A DNA stretch of 64,000 nucleotides from Cryptosporangium arvum DSM 44712 (GTDB lineage Bacteria > Actinomycetota > Actinomycetes > Mycobacteriales > Cryptosporangiaceae), in the NCBI RefSeq assembly GCF_000585375.1, contig NZ_KK073874.1:3596001-3660000 (forward strand), read 5' to 3'. A program made the position numbers and the translations under genes. Below the pieces are notes generated by a model that saw only the letters and a program-made list of their open reading frames with translations, was not told the origin of the DNA and did not search any database. Positions 17,904-49,893 of this stretch are shown piece after piece (the first letter of the stretch is position 1; each line of letters opens with the position of its first letter).

Positions 17904-17914
<11 letters not shown>

Positions 17915-18242
17915 CCCTGCAACTCCTGCCTTACCGGTGGTGTCGACGGTCACTGGCGGGGTGGCCGTGCTCGACAGCGTCGATTACTGGGTTCGGCAGG
18001 TACGCGAGCCCGTGCGCTTCGCGGATGCCGTGACCAGCATGCGTGAGCTGGGCGTCGACACGGTTCTCGAACTGGGGCCCGGGACACCGCGCTGACCGCG
18101 CTGGTCGAGAACGGGATCGCCATCCAGCGGCGGAACCGTCCCGAAGTCACGATGCTTCTGAGCGGCCTCGCGCAGCTGTTCGTGCGCGGCGCCGACGTCA
18201 CCTGGGAGACCGCGTTCGCCGGGCTCGACCCGCGCCGGGGTC
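17904..18242 (+). other. Cluster of four small indels breaking the PKS frame
   Basis: Comparison with the sister modules shows one base missing near 17909-17911 and another near 17922-17924. Two bases are extra at about 18081-18082, and one is extra at about 18239. The frame moves from phase 2 to 0, back to 2, then to 0. Between the breaks the protein is normal AT sequence ([22 protein letters not shown]), so nothing is deleted. Four indels in 340 bases and none elsewhere in 40 kb suggest consensus or assembly error in a nearly repeated region. True inactivation is the alternative. Confidence 0.85.
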
Positions 18243-18245
18243 GAC

Positions 18246-21200
18246 GTGCCGACCTACGCGTTCCAGCGGCAGCGCTACTGGCCGGCGACCGCGCTCGGCG
18301 CGGGGAACCCCGCCGGTCTCGGACAGGTCGCCGCCGAGCATCCGCTGCTCGGTGCGGCCGTCGACCTGGCCGACGGGAGCGGCGTCCTGCTCACCGGACG
18401 CATCTCGGTGAGCACCCAGCCCTGGCTCGCCGAGCACGCCGTCGGCGGGCAGGTCACACTGGCCGGTGCGGTCCTGCTCGACCTGGTCGGGCGGGCCGGT
18501 GTCGAGGTCGGCTGCGAGCGGATCGAGGAGCTCGCCCTGCACGAACCGCTGGTCCTGACCGGGAACGAGCCGGTCGACCTCCAGGTGCGGGTCGAGCCGG
18601 TCGACGCGTCCGGGCTCCGGCCGGTCAGCGTCCACAGCCGGCACGCCGACGACAGCGCGTGGCGTCATCACGCGGGTGGCCTGCTCGCTCCGACGACGCA
18701 CGCCGGAACCGACAGCCTCGGCGCGTGGCCCCCGGCCGACGCCGTCGAGGTGCCACTCGACGACCGGTACGAGCAGCTCGCCGACGTCGGATTCCACTAC
18801 GGACCTCTGTTCCAAGGGCTGCGTCAGGCGTGGCGCCGGGGCGACGAGGTTTTCGCCGCCGTGGAGTTGCCGGAAACCGACGTCGCCGGGTTCGGTGTGC
18901 ACCCCGCGCTGCTGGACGCCGCCGTGCAGGCCGGGGCGATCGTCGGGATCGACGACGGGTTGCCGTTCGTCTGGCAGGGCGTGTCGGTCCACGCGACCGG
19001 CGCGACATCGCTGCGGGTCAGGCTGCGCCGGACCGCCGAGGACCGGGTGTCGTTGCTCGCCGTGGACGCGGCGGGGGACCCGGTCGTCACCGCCGAATCC
19101 GTGCTGTACCGCTCGGTCGGCGGACGATCCGGACCGGCCGAGCGTCAGCTCTACACCGTGGACTGGCCGGCCGTCCCCGTGGCGCCGTTCGCGGGTGAAG
19201 TGGTCTCCTGCGGCGACCTGTCCTCGGCCGACGTCGGCACCGTGCTGATGCCGATCGGCGGCGGCACCGGGGACGTCGTGGAAGACACGCACCGGCTCGT
19301 GGCGGAAGTGCTGGCCGCCGTGCAGGACTGGCTGGCCTCGGACGGCACCGTCGGTCACCGGCTGGTGTTCGTGTCGCACAACGCGATCGGCTCCGACCCG
19401 GCGGTGGAGGCCGCGTGGGGTCTGGTGCGGTCGGCACAGAACGAGCACCCGGGCGTGTTCGGCCTGGTCGACGTCGAGCACGAGGACGATCTGCAGAAGG
19501 CACTGGGGTCGGACGAGCCGCAGGTCATCGTGCGCGGCGGGGTCGTGCGCGCGGCGCGGCTGGTGCGTCACGCGGGCGGCGGGGAGGCGCCGGATCTGCG
19601 GGGGACCGTGTTGATCTCGGGCGGTCTCGGTGGTCTGGGTGTGCTGGTGGCGCGGCATCTGGCCGAGCGGGGCGCGTCGAAGCTGGTGCTGGTCGGCCGG
19701 ACGGCTCGGGACTCGGCTGGGGTCGTGGCGGAGCTGTCCGCGCTCGGCGTCGACGTGGTGGTGGAAGCCGCGGATCTCGCCGACCGGGCGGCGGCGGCGG
19801 CAGTGGTGGCCCGGCACGACATCGACGCCGTAGTGCACGCCGCCGGTGTGCTGGACGACGGTGTGGTCGGGTCGTTGACGGCCGAGCGGGTCGCCGGGGT
19901 GCTGCGTCCCAAGGTCGACGCGGTGTGGAACCTGCACGAGCTGACGCCGGACGCGAAAGCCTTCGTGGTGTTCTCGTCGCTCGCCGGAGTTCTGGGCTCC
20001 CCGGGGCAGAGCAGTTACGCGGCGGGCAACGCGTTCCTCGACGCGCTGATGGTGATGCGGCGCAGCCAGGGCCTTCCGGGGCAGTCGATCGTCTGGGGTC
20101 CGTGGGACACCGGCATGGCGGCCGCGGCCGACGTCGACCGGATGAGCCGTTCGGGCGTACCGGCGCTGACCGCCGACGAAGGACTCGCGCTGTTCGACGT
20201 GGCCTTGACCGCGGACGCCGCCGCGGTCGTCGGCGTTCGGTTCGACCTGGCGGTCCTGCGCGGGCTGACCGACGTACCGCCGGTGCTCCGGGCACTGGTC
20301 CGGACGCGTTCGCGGCGGGTCGCGGTCGCCGGTACCGCGGTTGCGGAGGGCTTGGTCCAGCAGCTCACCGGCTTGGACGACGCCGCGCGCCAGACGTTCG
20401 CGGTGGACCTCGTCCGTGGCCTGGTCGCGCAGGTGCTCGGCCACGCCGATCCGTCGGCGATCAAGGAGACGCGTCCGTTCCAGGAGCTCGGGTTCGATTC
20501 GCTGACCGCGATCGACCTGCGCAACCGGCTGACCGCCGCGACCGGCCTGCGGTTGCCGGCGACGTTGGTGTTCGACTACCCGAACACGCTGGGTCTGGCC
20601 GGGTTCGTGGTCGACGAACTGGTCGGCGGAGCGCTGCCGGTGCCGGTCGCGCCGGCCACTCCGAAGGTGGCCGACGATCCGATCGTGATCGTCGGCATGG
20701 CCTGCCGGTACCCCGGCGGTGTGTCCACGCCGGAGGACCTGTGGCGGCTGGTGATGTCCGGCACGGACGCGGTGTCGGAGTTCCCGTCGGATCGTGGCTG
20801 GGATCTGGCCGGGCTGTATCACCCGGATCCGGATCATGCCGGGACGTCGTACGCGCGTGAGGGTGGGTTCCTGCACGAGGCGGCGTGGTTCGATCCGGAG
20901 TTCTTCGGGATGAGCCCGCGGGACGCCGTCGGAACCGATGCCCAGCACCGGTTGTTGCTGGAGACGAGCTGGGAGGCGATCGAGCGGGCCGGGATCGATC
21001 CGGTGTCGTTGCGTGGTTCGCAGACCGGCGTGTTCGCCGGGGTCATGTACAGCGACTACGGCGGCGCGGGTGCGGCGCCCAGCGTCGCGTCGGGCCGGGT
21101 GTCGTACACGCTCGGGTTGGAGGGCCCGGCGGTGACGGTGGATACGGCGTGTTCGTCGTCGCTGGTCGCGGTGCATCTGGCGGCGCAGGCGTTGCGGTCC

Positions 21201-45090: not shown

Positions 45091-45959
45091 TGCCCGCCGG
45101 CACGCTGTACGCGATCAGCGATCTCCACGTCGCGTACGAGGAGAACCGGCAGATCGTGCGTGACATGCGCCCGACGTCGGCGTCGGACTGGCTGATCGTC
45201 GCCGGTGACGTCGGCGAACGGTTCGAGGACGTGCGGTGGGCGCTGGGGGTGCTGGCCGAACGGTTCGAGCGCGTCATCTGGTGCCCGGGCAACCACGAAC
45301 TCTGGACCCCTCCGGACGATCCGGTGCAGCTGCGCGGCGTCGAACGCTACGACGCGCTGGTCGAGCTGTGCCGCGAGCTCGGCGTGAGTTCGCCGGAGGA
45401 CGAGTACGCGGTCTGGACGGGCGCCGACGGTCCGGTGGTCCTCGCGCCGCTCTTCGTGCTCTACGACTACAGCTTCCTCGTCCCCGGGGTGCGGACGAAG
45501 GCCGAGTCGCTGGCGCGCGCGTACGAGGTCGGTGTGGTGTGCACGGACGAGATGCTGCTGCACCCCGATCCGTTCCCGTCCCGGGAGGCCTGGTGCGCCG
45601 ACCGGCTGGAGCGCACCGAACGGCGGCTCGCCGAGCTGCCGTCGGATCGGGAGGTCGTCCTGATCAACCACTTCCCGCTGGTGCGCGCCCCGACGCGGAT
45701 CCTGCGCTACCCGGAGTTCGCGCAGTGGTGCGGCACGACGAGGACGGCCGACTGGCACGTCCGGTTCGGTGCCCGCACCGTCATCTACGGCCATCTGCAC
45801 ATACCCCGGGTGACCTGGCACGACGGGGTGCGCTTCGAGGAGGTCTCGGTGGGCTATCCCCGTGAATGGCGGCGTCGGCCCGGTGCCGCCGGTCGGCTGC
45901 GCCGGGTGCTCGGCACGCGGGCTCCGTCGACGCCGGCCCGCGTCGGTGCGCAGCGGTAG
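45090..45959 (+). CDS. Calcineurin-like metallophosphoesterase (PptH-like, next to a PPTase)
   Basis: A 289-residue protein with the full metal-binding set of calcineurin-like phosphoesterases: DLH (11-13), GD (39-40), GNHE (67-70), a later NHFP motif and GHLH near the C-terminus. The GTG start overlaps the thioesterase stop (TAGTG), and a phosphopantetheinyl transferase gene follows after ten bases. In Mycobacterium tuberculosis a metallophosphoesterase, PptH (Rv2795c), is encoded beside PptT (Rv2794c) and strips phosphopantetheine from carrier proteins. By context and fold I infer the same job here on PKS ACPs. Substrate specificity cannot be read from motifs; another phosphodiester or phosphomonoester substrate is possible. 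Confidence 0.85.
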   Translation: MPAGTLYAISDLHVAYEENRQIVRDMRPTSASDWLIVAGDVGERFEDVRWALGVLAERFERVIWCPGNHELWTPPDDPVQLRGVERYDALVELCRELGVSSPEDEYAVWTGADGPVVLAPLFVLYDYSFLVPGVRTKAESLARAYEVGVVCTDEMLLHPDPFPSREAWCADRLERTERRLAELPSDREVVLINHFPLVRAPTRILRYPEFAQWCGTTRTADWHVRFGARTVIYGHLHIPRVTWHDGVRFEEVSVGYPREWRRRPGAAGRLRRVLGTRAPSTPARVGAQR

Positions 45960-45969
45960 GGCCGGCACC

Positions 45970-46665
45970 GTGCTCACCACGCTGGCCGGGCTGCTCGAGC
46001 GGCTCACGCCGTCGACGGTCGCGGCCGAGGAGACGTTCACCGACCGCGCCGACGTGCGCCTGTACCCCGCGGAGGAAGCGGCGATCGCGCGGGCGGTGCC
46101 GAAGCGCCGGCGCGAGTTCGCCACCGTGCGGTCCTGCGCGCGCACCGCCCTGACCCGCATCGGGGTAGCACCGGCGCCGATCGTCCCCGGCCATCGCGGC
46201 GCACCGGCCTGGCCGGCCGGAGTGGTCGGCAGCATGACCCACTGCGCGGGCTACCGTGCGTGCGCGGTCGCCCTCGCACACGACGTGATCACGATCGGCG
46301 TCGACGCCGAACCCGCACAGCGGCTGCCCGACGGCGTGCTGGACGTGATCTCGCTGCCGGCCGAACGCGCCGCGCTCGCCGCACTGGCTCAGCAGGCACC
46401 CGGGATCGCCTGGGACCGGATGCTGTTCAGCGCCAAAGAGGCCGTCTACAAAGCCTGGTTTCCGCTGATGCGCGCACCGCTGGACTTCTCCGAGGCGACG
46501 GTCGACTTCGACCCGGTGGGGCGGACGTTCACCGCTCGCCTCCTGGTACCGGGCCCGGCCACCCCAGCCGGGCAACTGACCGAATTCAGCGGTCGCTGGC
46601 TGCAGGCGCGAGGTCTGGTGCTCTCCGCCATCGTCGTGCCCGCCCCGTCCGTCGTCGCAGCTTGA
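45970..46665 (+). CDS. 4'-phosphopantetheinyl transferase (Sfp/PptT type)
   Basis: A 231-residue enzyme that transfers the phosphopantetheine arm of CoA to the serine of ACP domains, activating the PKS. Motifs: SMTHCAGYR near residue 88, GVDAEP with magnesium ligands Asp112 and Glu114, and FSAKEAVYKAW at 153-163. An in-frame extension back to 45862 would overlap the preceding gene, so I use the GTG at 45970, ten bases after the phosphoesterase stop. The next gene starts nine bases after the stop, with GAGGAGG between. The sequence resembles PptT and EntD more than the short Sfp. It is positioned like nysF. Confidence 0.93.
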   Translation: MLTTLAGLLERLTPSTVAAEETFTDRADVRLYPAEEAAIARAVPKRRREFATVRSCARTALTRIGVAPAPIVPGHRGAPAWPAGVVGSMTHCAGYRACAVALAHDVITIGVDAEPAQRLPDGVLDVISLPAERAALAALAQQAPGIAWDRMLFSAKEAVYKAWFPLMRAPLDFSEATVDFDPVGRTFTARLLVPGPATPAGQLTEFSGRWLQARGLVLSAIVVPAPSVVAA

Positions 46666-46674
46666 GGAGGCACG

Positions 46675-47730
46675 ATGAGCTACGCCTACCCGGTCTCCAA
46701 GCCCTGGCTCGGCGACCGGGAACAACAGTTGGTCGGCGAGGCGATCGCCAGCGGTTGGATCTCGTCGCAGGGCCCGGAGATCAAGCGGTTCGAGGCCGCG
46801 TTCGCCGAGTACAACGGCGTCGCGCACGGCGTCGCGTGCTCGTCGGGGACGGCGGCACTGACCGTCGCGCTGGCCGCGCTGGGAGTCGGGCCCGGCGACG
46901 AGGTGATCGTGCCCGAGTTCACGATGATCGCCTCGGCGTGGGCCGTGAACTACGTCGGCGCGACGCCGGTGTTCGTCGACTGCGGCGACGACCTCAACCT
47001 CGACGTCACGAAGATCGAGGCCCGGATCACGTCCCGGACCGCGGTGATCATGCCGGTGCACGTCTACGGCCGCCGGTGCGACATGGACGCGATCATGGAG
47101 CTGGCCTACGACTACAACCTGCGGGTCGTGGAGGACTCGGCGGAGTCGCACGGCGTGCGACCGGTGGGTGACGTCGCCTGTTTCTCGTTGTTCGCCAACA
47201 AGATCATCACGGCGGGGGAGGGCGGCATCTGCATCACGAACGAGCCGCGCCTGGCCGAGCAGATGGCGCACCTGCGGGCGATGGCCTTCACCAAGGACCA
47301 CAGCTTCCTGCACAAGAAGATCGCCTACAACTTCCGGATGACGAACCTCCAGGCCGCGCTCGCGAGCGCGCAGCTCGAGCGGATCGACGAGATCCTGAGC
47401 CGGCGGCGGGCGATCGAGAAGTACTACGACGCCGCGCTCGCCGGGATACCGGGCGTGACGCTGATGCCGCCCCGCGACGTGCTCTGGATGTACGACGTGC
47501 GCGTCGAGCGGCGCGCGCAGCTCCAGGCCCACCTGGCCGAGAACGGCGTCGAGACGCGGCTGTTCTTCAAACCGATGAGCCGCCAACCGATGTACTTCGA
47601 CGCCGGGTGGCCGGAACTCAAGGCCGCGGCGTTCAGTGAGGACGGCCTCTACCTGCCGACCTACCCCGAGCTCACCGAGGCCGACCAGGAGATCATCGTC
47701 GGCCACATCCGGTCCTTCTACCGGCCCTGA
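46675..47730 (+). CDS. DegT/DnrJ/EryC1 aminotransferase, probable GDP-mycosamine synthase
   Basis: A 351-residue PLP enzyme predicted to aminate GDP-3-keto-6-deoxymannose to GDP-mycosamine (NysDII/AmphDII role). The PLP-binding Lys176 lies in FANKIITAGEGG; other family marks are ASGWISSQGP, SSGTAAL, and EDSAESHG. The ATG has a strong GAGGAGG site just after the PPTase stop. Together with the dehydratase and the glycosyltransferase it makes up the known gene-encoded mycosamine steps; no 3,4-isomerase gene is seen here, as is usual for these clusters. Family members acting on other sugars, such as perosamine synthase, look similar, so the substrate is inferred from context. Confidence 0.9.
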   Translation: MSYAYPVSKPWLGDREQQLVGEAIASGWISSQGPEIKRFEAAFAEYNGVAHGVACSSGTAALTVALAALGVGPGDEVIVPEFTMIASAWAVNYVGATPVFVDCGDDLNLDVTKIEARITSRTAVIMPVHVYGRRCDMDAIMELAYDYNLRVVEDSAESHGVRPVGDVACFSLFANKIITAGEGGICITNEPRLAEQMAHLRAMAFTKDHSFLHKKIAYNFRMTNLQAALASAQLERIDEILSRRRAIEKYYDAALAGIPGVTLMPPRDVLWMYDVRVERRAQLQAHLAENGVETRLFFKPMSRQPMYFDAGWPELKAAAFSEDGLYLPTYPELTEADQEIIVGHIRSFYRP

Positions 47731-47778
47731 CGGCCGGTCCGACCGCGGCGCCGCCGCCGCGACTTCCTGGAGCGAATC

Positions 47779-49821
47779 ATGACGACGCCGGCTGACGAGG
47801 CCGCGGGCGTGCTGCACGCGTCGCGGAAGGAGACCGAACGCCCTCGCCGCTATGGCGTCAGCCGCGCCGTCACCGGTGCACCGGTGACCCGGACACCCCG
47901 TCGTCCCGGCCCGGCGCCTGAGCTGCTGCGGGTGCGGTGGGTGGAGGTGCGCGGGTCCGGGGCGGGGTTCCCGGCCGGTTTCCGGACCGGCTTCGTGACC
48001 GCGGCTGGCGCTCTGCCCGAGCCGGCCGGCGGGCGGGTGCCCGACCTGGTCGTCGTCGAGACCGACGAGTCGTGCGACGCGTCCGGCGTGTGCGCCCGCG
48101 TGCTCGGCCCGCTCCGGGCGTTCCTGTCCGACCGTCGGTACACCGGTTCGCGGCTGGCCGTCGTGACCCGCCTCGGGGTCGCGGTCGAGCCGGGCGCGCC
48201 GGTCAACGTCGCCGTCGCGGCGGCCTGGGGACTGGTGCGCGCGGCGCAGAACGAGCATCCGGGGCGGGTCGTGCTGGTCGACGTGGAGGCCGACGAGCCC
48301 GCGCTGCTCAGCGTGCTGGCCGCGGTGACGGCCACCGGTGAAGCGCAGGCGGCGGTCCGCGGCGGGAGCGTGCTGGTGCCCCGCCTGGAGGCGCTCGACG
48401 ACGGTGGCGGCCTGCTGCCTCCGCCCGGCGCGACACCGTGGCGCCTCACGCGCGGTGGGGACGGCCTCACCCTGCTGCCGTGCCCGCAGGTCGGTGCGCC
48501 GCTCACCGGCCGGCAGGTCCGGATCTCGGTCCGGGCGGGCGGGGTCAACCCCAGCGACGCGTCGGGCAGGTTCCGGAACCTCGGCCGGGAGGCGGCGGGC
48601 ATCGTCCTCGACGTCGGCCCGGAGGTTGCCGGCCTCCGTCCCGGGGACCGGGTGACCGGGCTGGCCGACGCGTGTTTCGGCCCGGTGGCGCTCAGCAGCG
48701 AACCGCTGCTGCTGCCGGTACCCGAGGACTGGACGTTCGAGCAGGCAGCGACCGTTCCGGTCGCGTTCCTGACCGCCTACTACGCGCTGGCGGACGTCGC
48801 TCCGGGGGCGTCGGTGCTCGTCCGTGACGGCGCCGGCGGGGCGGGCACGGCCGCGATCCAGCTGGCTCAGCATCTCGGTGCTGACGTTTACGTGACCGCC
48901 GCCGAATCCACCTGGGACGTGCTCCGCGACCTGGGCCTGCCGGACGACCGCATCGCCGTGAGGTGGCCGACCACCAGGTTCGACGTGGTGTTCGAGAATC
49001 GGTATTTCGACGCCGGGCCCGACATCGTCTCCGCGATGCTGGCCGAGCTGGCCGAGCTCTTCGCAGCCGGCGTGCTCGACCCCCTGCCGGTCACCGCGTT
49101 CGACGTGCGCCGGGCCCGGGACGCGCTGTGGCACCTGAGCCGGGGCGAACACACCGGCAAGGTCGTGCTGACGATCCCGCACGGGTGGGACACCGACCGG
49201 ACGGTGCTCGTCACCGGTGGCACCGGACACCTGGGGCGCGACATCGCCCGGTACCTGGTCACCGCCCGGGGGACGCGCCGCCTGGTGCTGGCCGGTCCGG
49301 CCGCGCCGGGCACGGATGCGCTGCGGAGGGAGTTGACCGCGTCCGGCGCGCGCGTCGACGTCGTGGTCTGTGACGTGGCCGATCGGCGCGCGCTCTCCGC
49401 GCTGCTCACCACGCACCCGGTGGACGCCGTGGTTCACGTCGCCGGCCCCCTGGACGGTGGGGCCGTCGGGTCGCTGACCCCGGATGAGCTGGGGAGCGCG
49501 CTGCGCGCCAAGCTCGACGTCGCCTGGCACCTGCACGAGCTGGTCGGCGACGCGCCACTCGTCGTGTTGTCCTCTCCGGCCGGGCTGCTGGGCACGCCGG
49601 GGCGGGGCGCCGACGCCGCGGCGAGCGCGGGGCTCGACGCCCTGATGCACCAGCGGCAACGGCTGGGCCTTCCCGGTCTGTCGCTGGCCTGGGAGAGCGG
49701 GGAGACCGCGCTGCGGCTGTTCGACCTGGCGATCGGCAGCGACGAGGCCCTGATCGCGCCGTTCCGCGTCGACGCGTGGGCCGACCTGCCGGTGCCGCCG
49801 CTGTTCGACCGGCTGGTATAG
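47779..49821 (+). CDS. Free-standing PKS ER-KR didomain, apparently catalytically dead
   Basis: A 680-residue protein laid out like the reducing part of a fully reducing PKS module, without KS, AT, DH or ACP. After a charged 45-residue N-terminus come the KR structural half (to about 205; AAWGLVRAAQNEHPG), an ER (about 230-462; FLTAYYALADVAPGASVLV) and the catalytic KR half (475-680; VLVTGGTGHLG). Damage is clear. In the KR, the active Tyr and Asn of the usual GQGSYAAAN are Asp and Ser (GRGADAAAS). In the ER, the usual Lys before WDVLR is Thr, and about 55 residues around the VDVVLNSLAG region are missing. The deletions keep the frame open, and there is a CTGGAG site before the ATG. It lies 48 bases after the aminotransferase and before a terminator. 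It may be a relic, a structural partner or a trans-acting domain. Confidence 0.85.
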   Translation: MTTPADEAAGVLHASRKETERPRRYGVSRAVTGAPVTRTPRRPGPAPELLRVRWVEVRGSGAGFPAGFRTGFVTAAGALPEPAGGRVPDLVVVETDESCDASGVCARVLGPLRAFLSDRRYTGSRLAVVTRLGVAVEPGAPVNVAVAAAWGLVRAAQNEHPGRVVLVDVEADEPALLSVLAAVTATGEAQAAVRGGSVLVPRLEALDDGGGLLPPPGATPWRLTRGGDGLTLLPCPQVGAPLTGRQVRISVRAGGVNPSDASGRFRNLGREAAGIVLDVGPEVAGLRPGDRVTGLADACFGPVALSSEPLLLPVPEDWTFEQAATVPVAFLTAYYALADVAPGASVLVRDGAGGAGTAAIQLAQHLGADVYVTAAESTWDVLRDLGLPDDRIAVRWPTTRFDVVFENRYFDAGPDIVSAMLAELAELFAAGVLDPLPVTAFDVRRARDALWHLSRGEHTGKVVLTIPHGWDTDRTVLVTGGTGHLGRDIARYLVTARGTRRLVLAGPAAPGTDALRRELTASGARVDVVVCDVADRRALSALLTTHPVDAVVHVAGPLDGGAVGSLTPDELGSALRAKLDVAWHLHELVGDAPLVVLSSPAGLLGTPGRGADAAASAGLDALMHQRQRLGLPGLSLAWESGETALRLFDLAIGSDEALIAPFRVDAWADLPVPPLFDRLV

Positions 49822-49824
49822 CGG

Positions 49825-49861
49825 AACGCCCCGATCGTCCGTGATGACGATCGGGGCGTTT
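49825..49861 (+). terminator. Strong hairpin terminator at the end of the biosynthetic block
   Basis: A perfect 15-bp stem pairs AACGCCCCGATCGTC (49825-49839) with GACGATCGGGGCGTT (49846-49860) around a six-base loop, four bases after the stop of the ER-KR gene. On the plus strand it ends in TTT; on the minus strand the stem also precedes a short T run, so it may serve the facing regulator operon too. Confidence 0.85.
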
Positions 49862-49893
49862 GCCGTCGTGGGTCAGCTCAGTCGTGGGTCAGT

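Follow-up and report, generated by a model that had tools for sequence, protein, structure and literature searches.

The window analysed here (64,000 bases, positions 3596001-3660000 of the 9,195,993-base chromosome) carries a free-standing gene for a 680-residue protein that joins the structural half of a KR, an ER and the catalytic half of a KR, and that is, by its sequence, dead as an enzyme. The gene is tentatively read, with a probability of roughly 0.45, as a relic, a reductive loop that would have lain idle, decayed within a translated polypeptide and later been cut out. The features of the gene and its neighbours, in window coordinates, are:

45862..46665, + strand: 4'-phosphopantetheinyl transferase (PPTase) gene, start of a short co-directional run (Pfam, family match)
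46675..47730, + strand: DegT-family aminotransferase gene, which we take to be AmphDII-like, co-directional and upstream (Pfam, comparison)
47769..47772, + strand: GGAG, a Shine-Dalgarno-like site 6 nt upstream of the ATG (read in the sequence)
47779..49821, + strand: free-standing gene for a KR(structural)-ER-KR(catalytic) protein of 680 aa, catalytically disabled by sequence (ORF, Pfam, alignment)
47779..47910, + strand: first 44 codons, with undetectable DH homology and almost flat codon-position GC (0.75/0.70/0.80), possibly a newly recruited 5' end (homology and composition tests)
47923..48402, + strand: KR structural subdomain (SpnB_Rossmann, residues 105-203; Pfam, alignment)
48412..49176, + strand: ER domain in degenerate form, without the NFRD motif, the cofactor-loop residues and 7 aa of the substrate loop (Pfam, alignment)
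48979..49011, + strand: ER deletion junctions, about 52 aa gone including the EMGKTD Lys (alignment, 3slk match)
49183..49698, + strand: KR catalytic subdomain in degenerate form, without Tyr and Asn but with Ser, Lys and the TGGTG motif retained (Pfam, alignment)
49612..49626, + strand: KR active-site positions, Tyr612 to Asp and Asn616 to Ser (alignment)
49693..49698, + strand: junction of a 28-aa deletion that removes the KR lid and W motif (alignment)
49821..49866, + strand: hairpin at the stop codon, likely terminator (folding, -35.5 kcal/mol, z -3.59)

Domain organization and lost residues

The frame runs from its ATG to the stop codon without an internal stop, and its GC by codon position (0.80/0.55/0.91) resembles that of the adjacent genes. 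The open 2-kb frame and the start site described in the first-pass annotation were both borne out, the latter by the GGAG located 6 nt before the ATG. The terminator that it also described holds in part: a strong hairpin (z -3.59) opens on the last base of the stop codon, but its T run is short and a simple terminator scan does not list it. On the opposite strand a frame of 1292 residues (45781-49659) overlaps the gene and its upstream neighbours, and thus open frames by themselves mean little in this GC-rich DNA.

Pfam assigns SpnB_Rossmann to residues 105-203, ADH_N to residues 246-293, ADH_zinc_N_2 to residues 404-464 and KR to residues 475-639, and identifies no KS, AT or ACP in the protein, which is also without a DH; the frame ends at 49821. 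The order KR-structural, ER, KR-catalytic, which is that of the ER-KR reductive loop of modular PKSs, had been described earlier together with the lack of a carrier or ketosynthase domain, and is confirmed by both Pfam and the best solved-structure match. This match, the SpnB module 3slk (E 1.8e-125), displays the same domain order and aligns in two stretches, broken where the ER piece is absent. In contrast to the SpnB-type ER-KR, which is part of a full extender module, the protein is encoded by a separate gene, is damaged in both active sites and has lost about 103 aa. By Pfam it lacks the extender-module setting of KS, AT and ACP within the same protein; it is a separate gene within a PKS cluster, as expected of a trans-acting PKS reductase.

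The lost residues were defined against 30 other ER-KR modules, the gene and these 30 remaining after 13 overlapping copies were dropped from 44 extracted sequences; extraction was confined to loci with a single match longer than 600 residues, which set aside, among others, 13 of the 22 genome_contigs loci. The residues counted as catalytic in the KR and the ER are those we presume to be so. The KR active-site Tyr and Asn, both present in 30/30 compared modules, are replaced by Asp and Ser, as the first reading of the sequence had it, and the KR carries the further changes Q609R, N611A and D560G, while Ser, Lys and the TGGTG nucleotide motif (glycine motif) are retained. The ER had been said to lack about 55 residues and its usual Lys, and the alignment agrees, putting the loss at about 52 aa, spread over three neighbouring gaps (11, 38 and 3 columns). 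The missing EMGKTD Lys, which we take to be catalytic, is kept in 28/30 compared modules and is replaced in PksD module 2 and in L028; the ER here retains neither this Lys nor a complete cofactor domain. It is also substituted at F258P, R259S, H349R, A350D and K378T, the last three being cofactor-loop residues, and its substrate loop is shortened by 7 aa. This shortening and, in the KR, the loss of 28 aa with the lid and W motif extend the list of losses first noted. Altogether 32/135 near-invariant positions are changed in the gene (median 4.3% and maximum 10.1% in the 30 other modules) and 11 gaps total 103 aa, every one in frame, with 0-6 gaps in each of the other modules; the three adjacent ER gaps are among the 11 and possibly represent one event.

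The first 44 codons differ in composition from the rest of the gene, with G or C at 35/44 third and 31/44 second positions, against 0.92 and 0.54 in the remainder. Equally flat windows of 44 codons numbered 7/2033, in PksA, PksD and PksG. A remnant of a DH domain at the N-terminus appears plausible by eye and did not hold up in shuffle tests: the DH homology score of the 44 residues was -0.4, which 215/950 scored shuffles equalled or bettered, and the maximum pairwise DH comparison score of 43 was matched by 34/200 shuffles. The composition fits, and does not prove, a PKS fragment with its old codon pattern to which a new start was joined. The odd 5' end could also be an ordinary gene-start effect or reflect a wrong start codon; over the first 44 codons the difference between GC3 and GC2 is 0.09 in the gene and, in a comparison with ten other window genes, 0.11 in the LuxR gene and 0.14 in the PPTase gene. 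Codons 1-44 of the PPTase frame (45862-45993) lie outside the family match, which begins at residue 45, and the true PPTase start may lie further in.

The polyene cluster and the search for orthologues

The domain map places seven PKS reading frames with 31 extension modules upstream of the gene, with a KS-AT-ACP loading unit heading PksE and a thioesterase ending PksD. PksE, encoded upstream of the window (G000:C1:3544522-3588048), is a single frame of 14,508 aa that holds nine extension modules in addition to the loading unit. We infer the PKS order E-F-G-A-B/C-D, in which eight successive modules (PksF4, F5, F6/G1, G2-G5 and A1) carry DH and KR without ER; if this order is correct, the product is an octaene. 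In this map ER domains occur only in PksD modules 1 and 2. Two modules are split between reading frames. In the PksB/PksC pair, which sits upstream of the window, the division falls between KS and AT; in PksF/PksG it falls between AT and DH, with KS-AT closing PksF and DH-KR-ACP opening PksG 331 bases further on (17914-18246). The KRs of PksF modules 4-5 and PksG modules 1-5 group tightly in a single clade, as might result from homogenisation inside the gene cluster. In the ER of PksD module 2 (G000:C1:3534710-3536464, upstream of the window) Met replaces the EMGKTD Lys, and judging by this residue one of the two remaining ERs of the cluster may be impaired too.

PMC8944477 describes an octaene cluster of Cryptosporangium arvum DSM 44712 in which two PKS genes are frameshifted, perhaps through errors of sequencing, and uses the name AmphDII for the DegT-family aminotransferase. 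The present cluster is presumably that published one, and the product predicted there for the matching cluster is an octaene rather than the heptaene toward which, in the first-pass annotation, the ancestor may have changed. In five other genomes the counterparts of the AmphDII-like gene share 67-74% identity with it and in every case (5/5) lie between GT and P450 genes; in the window the AmphDII-like gene lies apart from both. A LuxR-type regulator gene faces the ER-KR gene.

Under strict cut-offs, searches of four genus and five family genomes, and of 397 order genomes, recovered the gene itself only (own genome counted in each; 2-3 candidates scored per genome in the order set). Among 394 class genomes, again with the own genome counted and 2-3 candidates per genome, the other matches lay within frames of 2191-11631 aa. 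The AmphDII-like gene, used as a marker, picked out five other genomes among these 394, where no match at E<=1e-45 lay in a frame shorter than 1890 aa; beside the AmphDII-like gene itself no orthologue was present in 5/5, the ER-KR-like matches in 20-kb stretches lying among PKS domains. Three congeners and one family member gave no match at E<=1e-45. The genome_contigs scan yielded 22 loci, the best with 52% identity over a segment, and a free-standing copy was seen in none, the frame lengths being partial for loci whose frames run past the locus end. Two short frames, L016 (882 aa) and L022 (587 aa), were considered as free-standing copies and proved to be frame-broken PKS pieces with DH before and ACP after. 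Among plasmids, 706 records matched; five of the 20 listed were examined and all five matches are inside long PKS genes, three of them under the name SDR oxidoreductase. The absence of orthologues is weak evidence, the sets searched being those without close relatives that carry the same cluster.

Probable origin from an ER-containing PKS module

In the ER tree the gene groups with PksD modules 1 and 2 (UFboot 88; here and below, supports are those of unrooted splits), joined next by L041, L044 and L062 (88) and then by L042, L064 and L068 (87). The six ER modules that join after those of PksD come from other genomes with mycosamine-type genes. Six other ER modules of the same five genomes (L043, L072, L067, L075, L057 and L061) fall outside the group, and, judged by coordinates, only L041, L044 and L062 have an AmphDII-like gene at a distance of about 25 kb or less. 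In the KR tree the gene is sister to L068, the KR of an ER module in another genome (92), a position recovered when the KRs of the cluster itself were added (59 sequences; 0.95). The combined tree is weak, with supports of 35 for six members and 53 for nine, and a support of 96 is reached only by a broader set of ten in which L028 (Crossiella) is also included. The gene has the longest terminal branch in each of the three trees of 31 sequences (0.79, 0.74 and 0.72).

A derivation of the gene from an ER-containing polyene-type module is supported by these sequence comparisons. The suggestion that it is a fossil of an ER-containing module stands insofar as the gene would be a piece of a polyene-type ER module (ER-tree supports 88, 88 and 87; KR outside the octaene block), but its tracing to the equivalent of NysC module 5 does not, the KR disagreeing with the ER (sister L068, 92). 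Within the genome the closest relatives are PksD modules 1 and 2, which over the ER stretch are 57% and 55% identical to the gene product, and the PksD line as the origin is suggested by the ER and not by the KR. These modules are sisters of the gene in the ER tree but in neither the KR nor the combined tree, and a direct copy of a PksD module is thus not claimed. In contrast to the gene, they are fully reducing, lie within a 5952-aa PKS ending in a thioesterase and keep the KR Tyr and Asn, with the ER Lys kept in module 1 and replaced by Met in module 2. An origin within the octaene block was rejected, the KR being separate from those of PksF4-5 and PksG1-5. A further comparison is offered by the module 5 ER of the nystatin/NPP PKS, where two substitutions in the NADPH motif lead to a heptaene, as reported in PMC6993583. 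Both are polyene-PKS ERs, and in nystatin/NPP the loss of activity lengthens the polyene; in contrast, that ER sits in its module while the ER here is free-standing and untraceable to that module.

Mode of decay and alternative explanations

Amino-acid change was measured against a clade norm, the divergence within the ER group of nine members (eight when the gene is excluded), a grouping that is itself only moderately supported. The excess over this norm in five classes of sites, ordered by increasing rate, was 0.21, 0.17, 0.24, 0.12 and 0.16, which suggests that constraint on the encoded residues was relaxed with hardly any regard to site conservation. Counted by column conservation, the gene differs at 24% of the most conserved class (against 3%) and at 17% of the next (against 14%), and this count taken alone suggests a loss aimed at active sites, which would fit a pseudoenzyme too. 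The comparison by site rate carries more weight because its reference is near relatives. Hydrophobic positions were lost at 13/158 sites (13/156 from the second start), close to the sum of the neutral expectation of 9-13 and a background of about 3.8.

The nucleotide sequence was compared with neutral simulations (d 0.10, giving 17-18% changed residues; 200 runs per setting), which predict 3.4-5.4 stops, with 0-3.5% of runs free of stops, and a GC3 of 0.82-0.85. The gene has no stops and a GC3 of 0.915, intergenic DNA has a GC content of 0.70 (11 gaps, 6519 bases), and the stops or frameshifts of an ordinary pseudogene are absent. The lack of stops, the high GC3 and the 11 in-frame gaps argue that the gene was translated during its decay. 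A lack of orthologues had been expected to favour a simple relic; the lack found in the sets searched does favour a relic, but a simple neutral one does not fit the intact frame, the in-frame deletions and the GC3.

In the favoured explanation the source would be the KR-ER-KR reductive loop of an ER-containing polyene-type PKS module. The loop would have gone on being translated during its decay, and the simplest setting for this would be a PKS polypeptide in which it lay idle while the frame was needed for the downstream domains. It would then have been separated from its module, have acquired about 44 codons as a new start region and have come to rest after the PPTase and AmphDII-like genes. 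At present it would play no part in catalysis and would probably be dispensable. Against a relic stand the ribosome site of its own, the hairpin end and the clean domain boundaries, which look like those of a gene in use, as well as the missing KS, AT and ACP, the lack of an identified donor module, a 44-aa start without DH homology, the different nearest relatives named by the ER and KR trees and the weakness of the combined tree. Deletions amounting to 103 aa would, moreover, be unusual inside a working PKS subunit.

A serious though unlikely alternative is a working pseudoenzyme, a selected non-catalytic partner of the PKS that would, for example, dock on an ACP or reductive loop and alter reduction or assembly. 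It would account for the open frame, the restriction of deletions to whole codons, a GC3 like that of working genes, the Shine-Dalgarno site and hairpin, the place in a short co-directional run with the PPTase and AmphDII-like genes and the preserved TGGTG motif, and the column count, in which the excess falls chiefly in the most conserved class with little in the one after it, is in its favour. Measured by site rate against the gene's own clade, however, the excess is spread across all classes, and hydrophobic positions are unprotected beyond the neutral expectation, much of the ER cofactor domain is absent, no orthologue appears in the sets searched and codons 1-44 are without clear coding periodicity. 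The relic was placed ahead of the pseudoenzyme on account of the relaxation seen at the residues and of the unusual 5' end, weighed against tidy gene signals. A reading in which a loop excised from a polyene PKS would now serve as a free-standing pseudo-reductase, acting on the assembly line without catalysis, for example as a scaffold or decoy that engages carrier or reductase domains, is regarded as doubtful.

A plain neutral pseudogene, open by chance in GC-rich DNA, is improbable. The relaxed amino-acid constraint would be expected of it and long chance frames, such as that on the antisense strand, are common here, but simulated decay brings several stops and a lower GC3, the 11 gaps include no frameshift and intergenic DNA has a GC content of 0.70.

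That the protein is an active ER or KR working in trans for a module without its own is hardly credible from the sequence: free-standing reductases are known in other PKS systems, the KR Ser, Lys and glycine motif remain and loss of the ER Lys alone is no proof of death (2/30 modules are without it), but the KR Tyr and Asn kept in 30/30 others, about 52 aa of the ER cofactor domain and the cofactor-loop residues His-349, Ala-350 and Lys-378 are lost. Trans-acting enoylreductases such as LovC and the ERs of trans-AT PKSs are separate, active enzymes in PKS reduction. The protein resembles them as a separate protein related to PKS reduction, and in contrast to them lacks active-site parts and carries a KR half in addition.

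PKS modules gain and lose reductive loops in evolution. To our knowledge no case of an excised loop surviving as a separate gene has been described, and the titles and abstract openings returned by a literature search showed none, though a printed case is possible. An inactivated ER-KR gene next to an octaene PKS would provide material evidence that such an excision took place.
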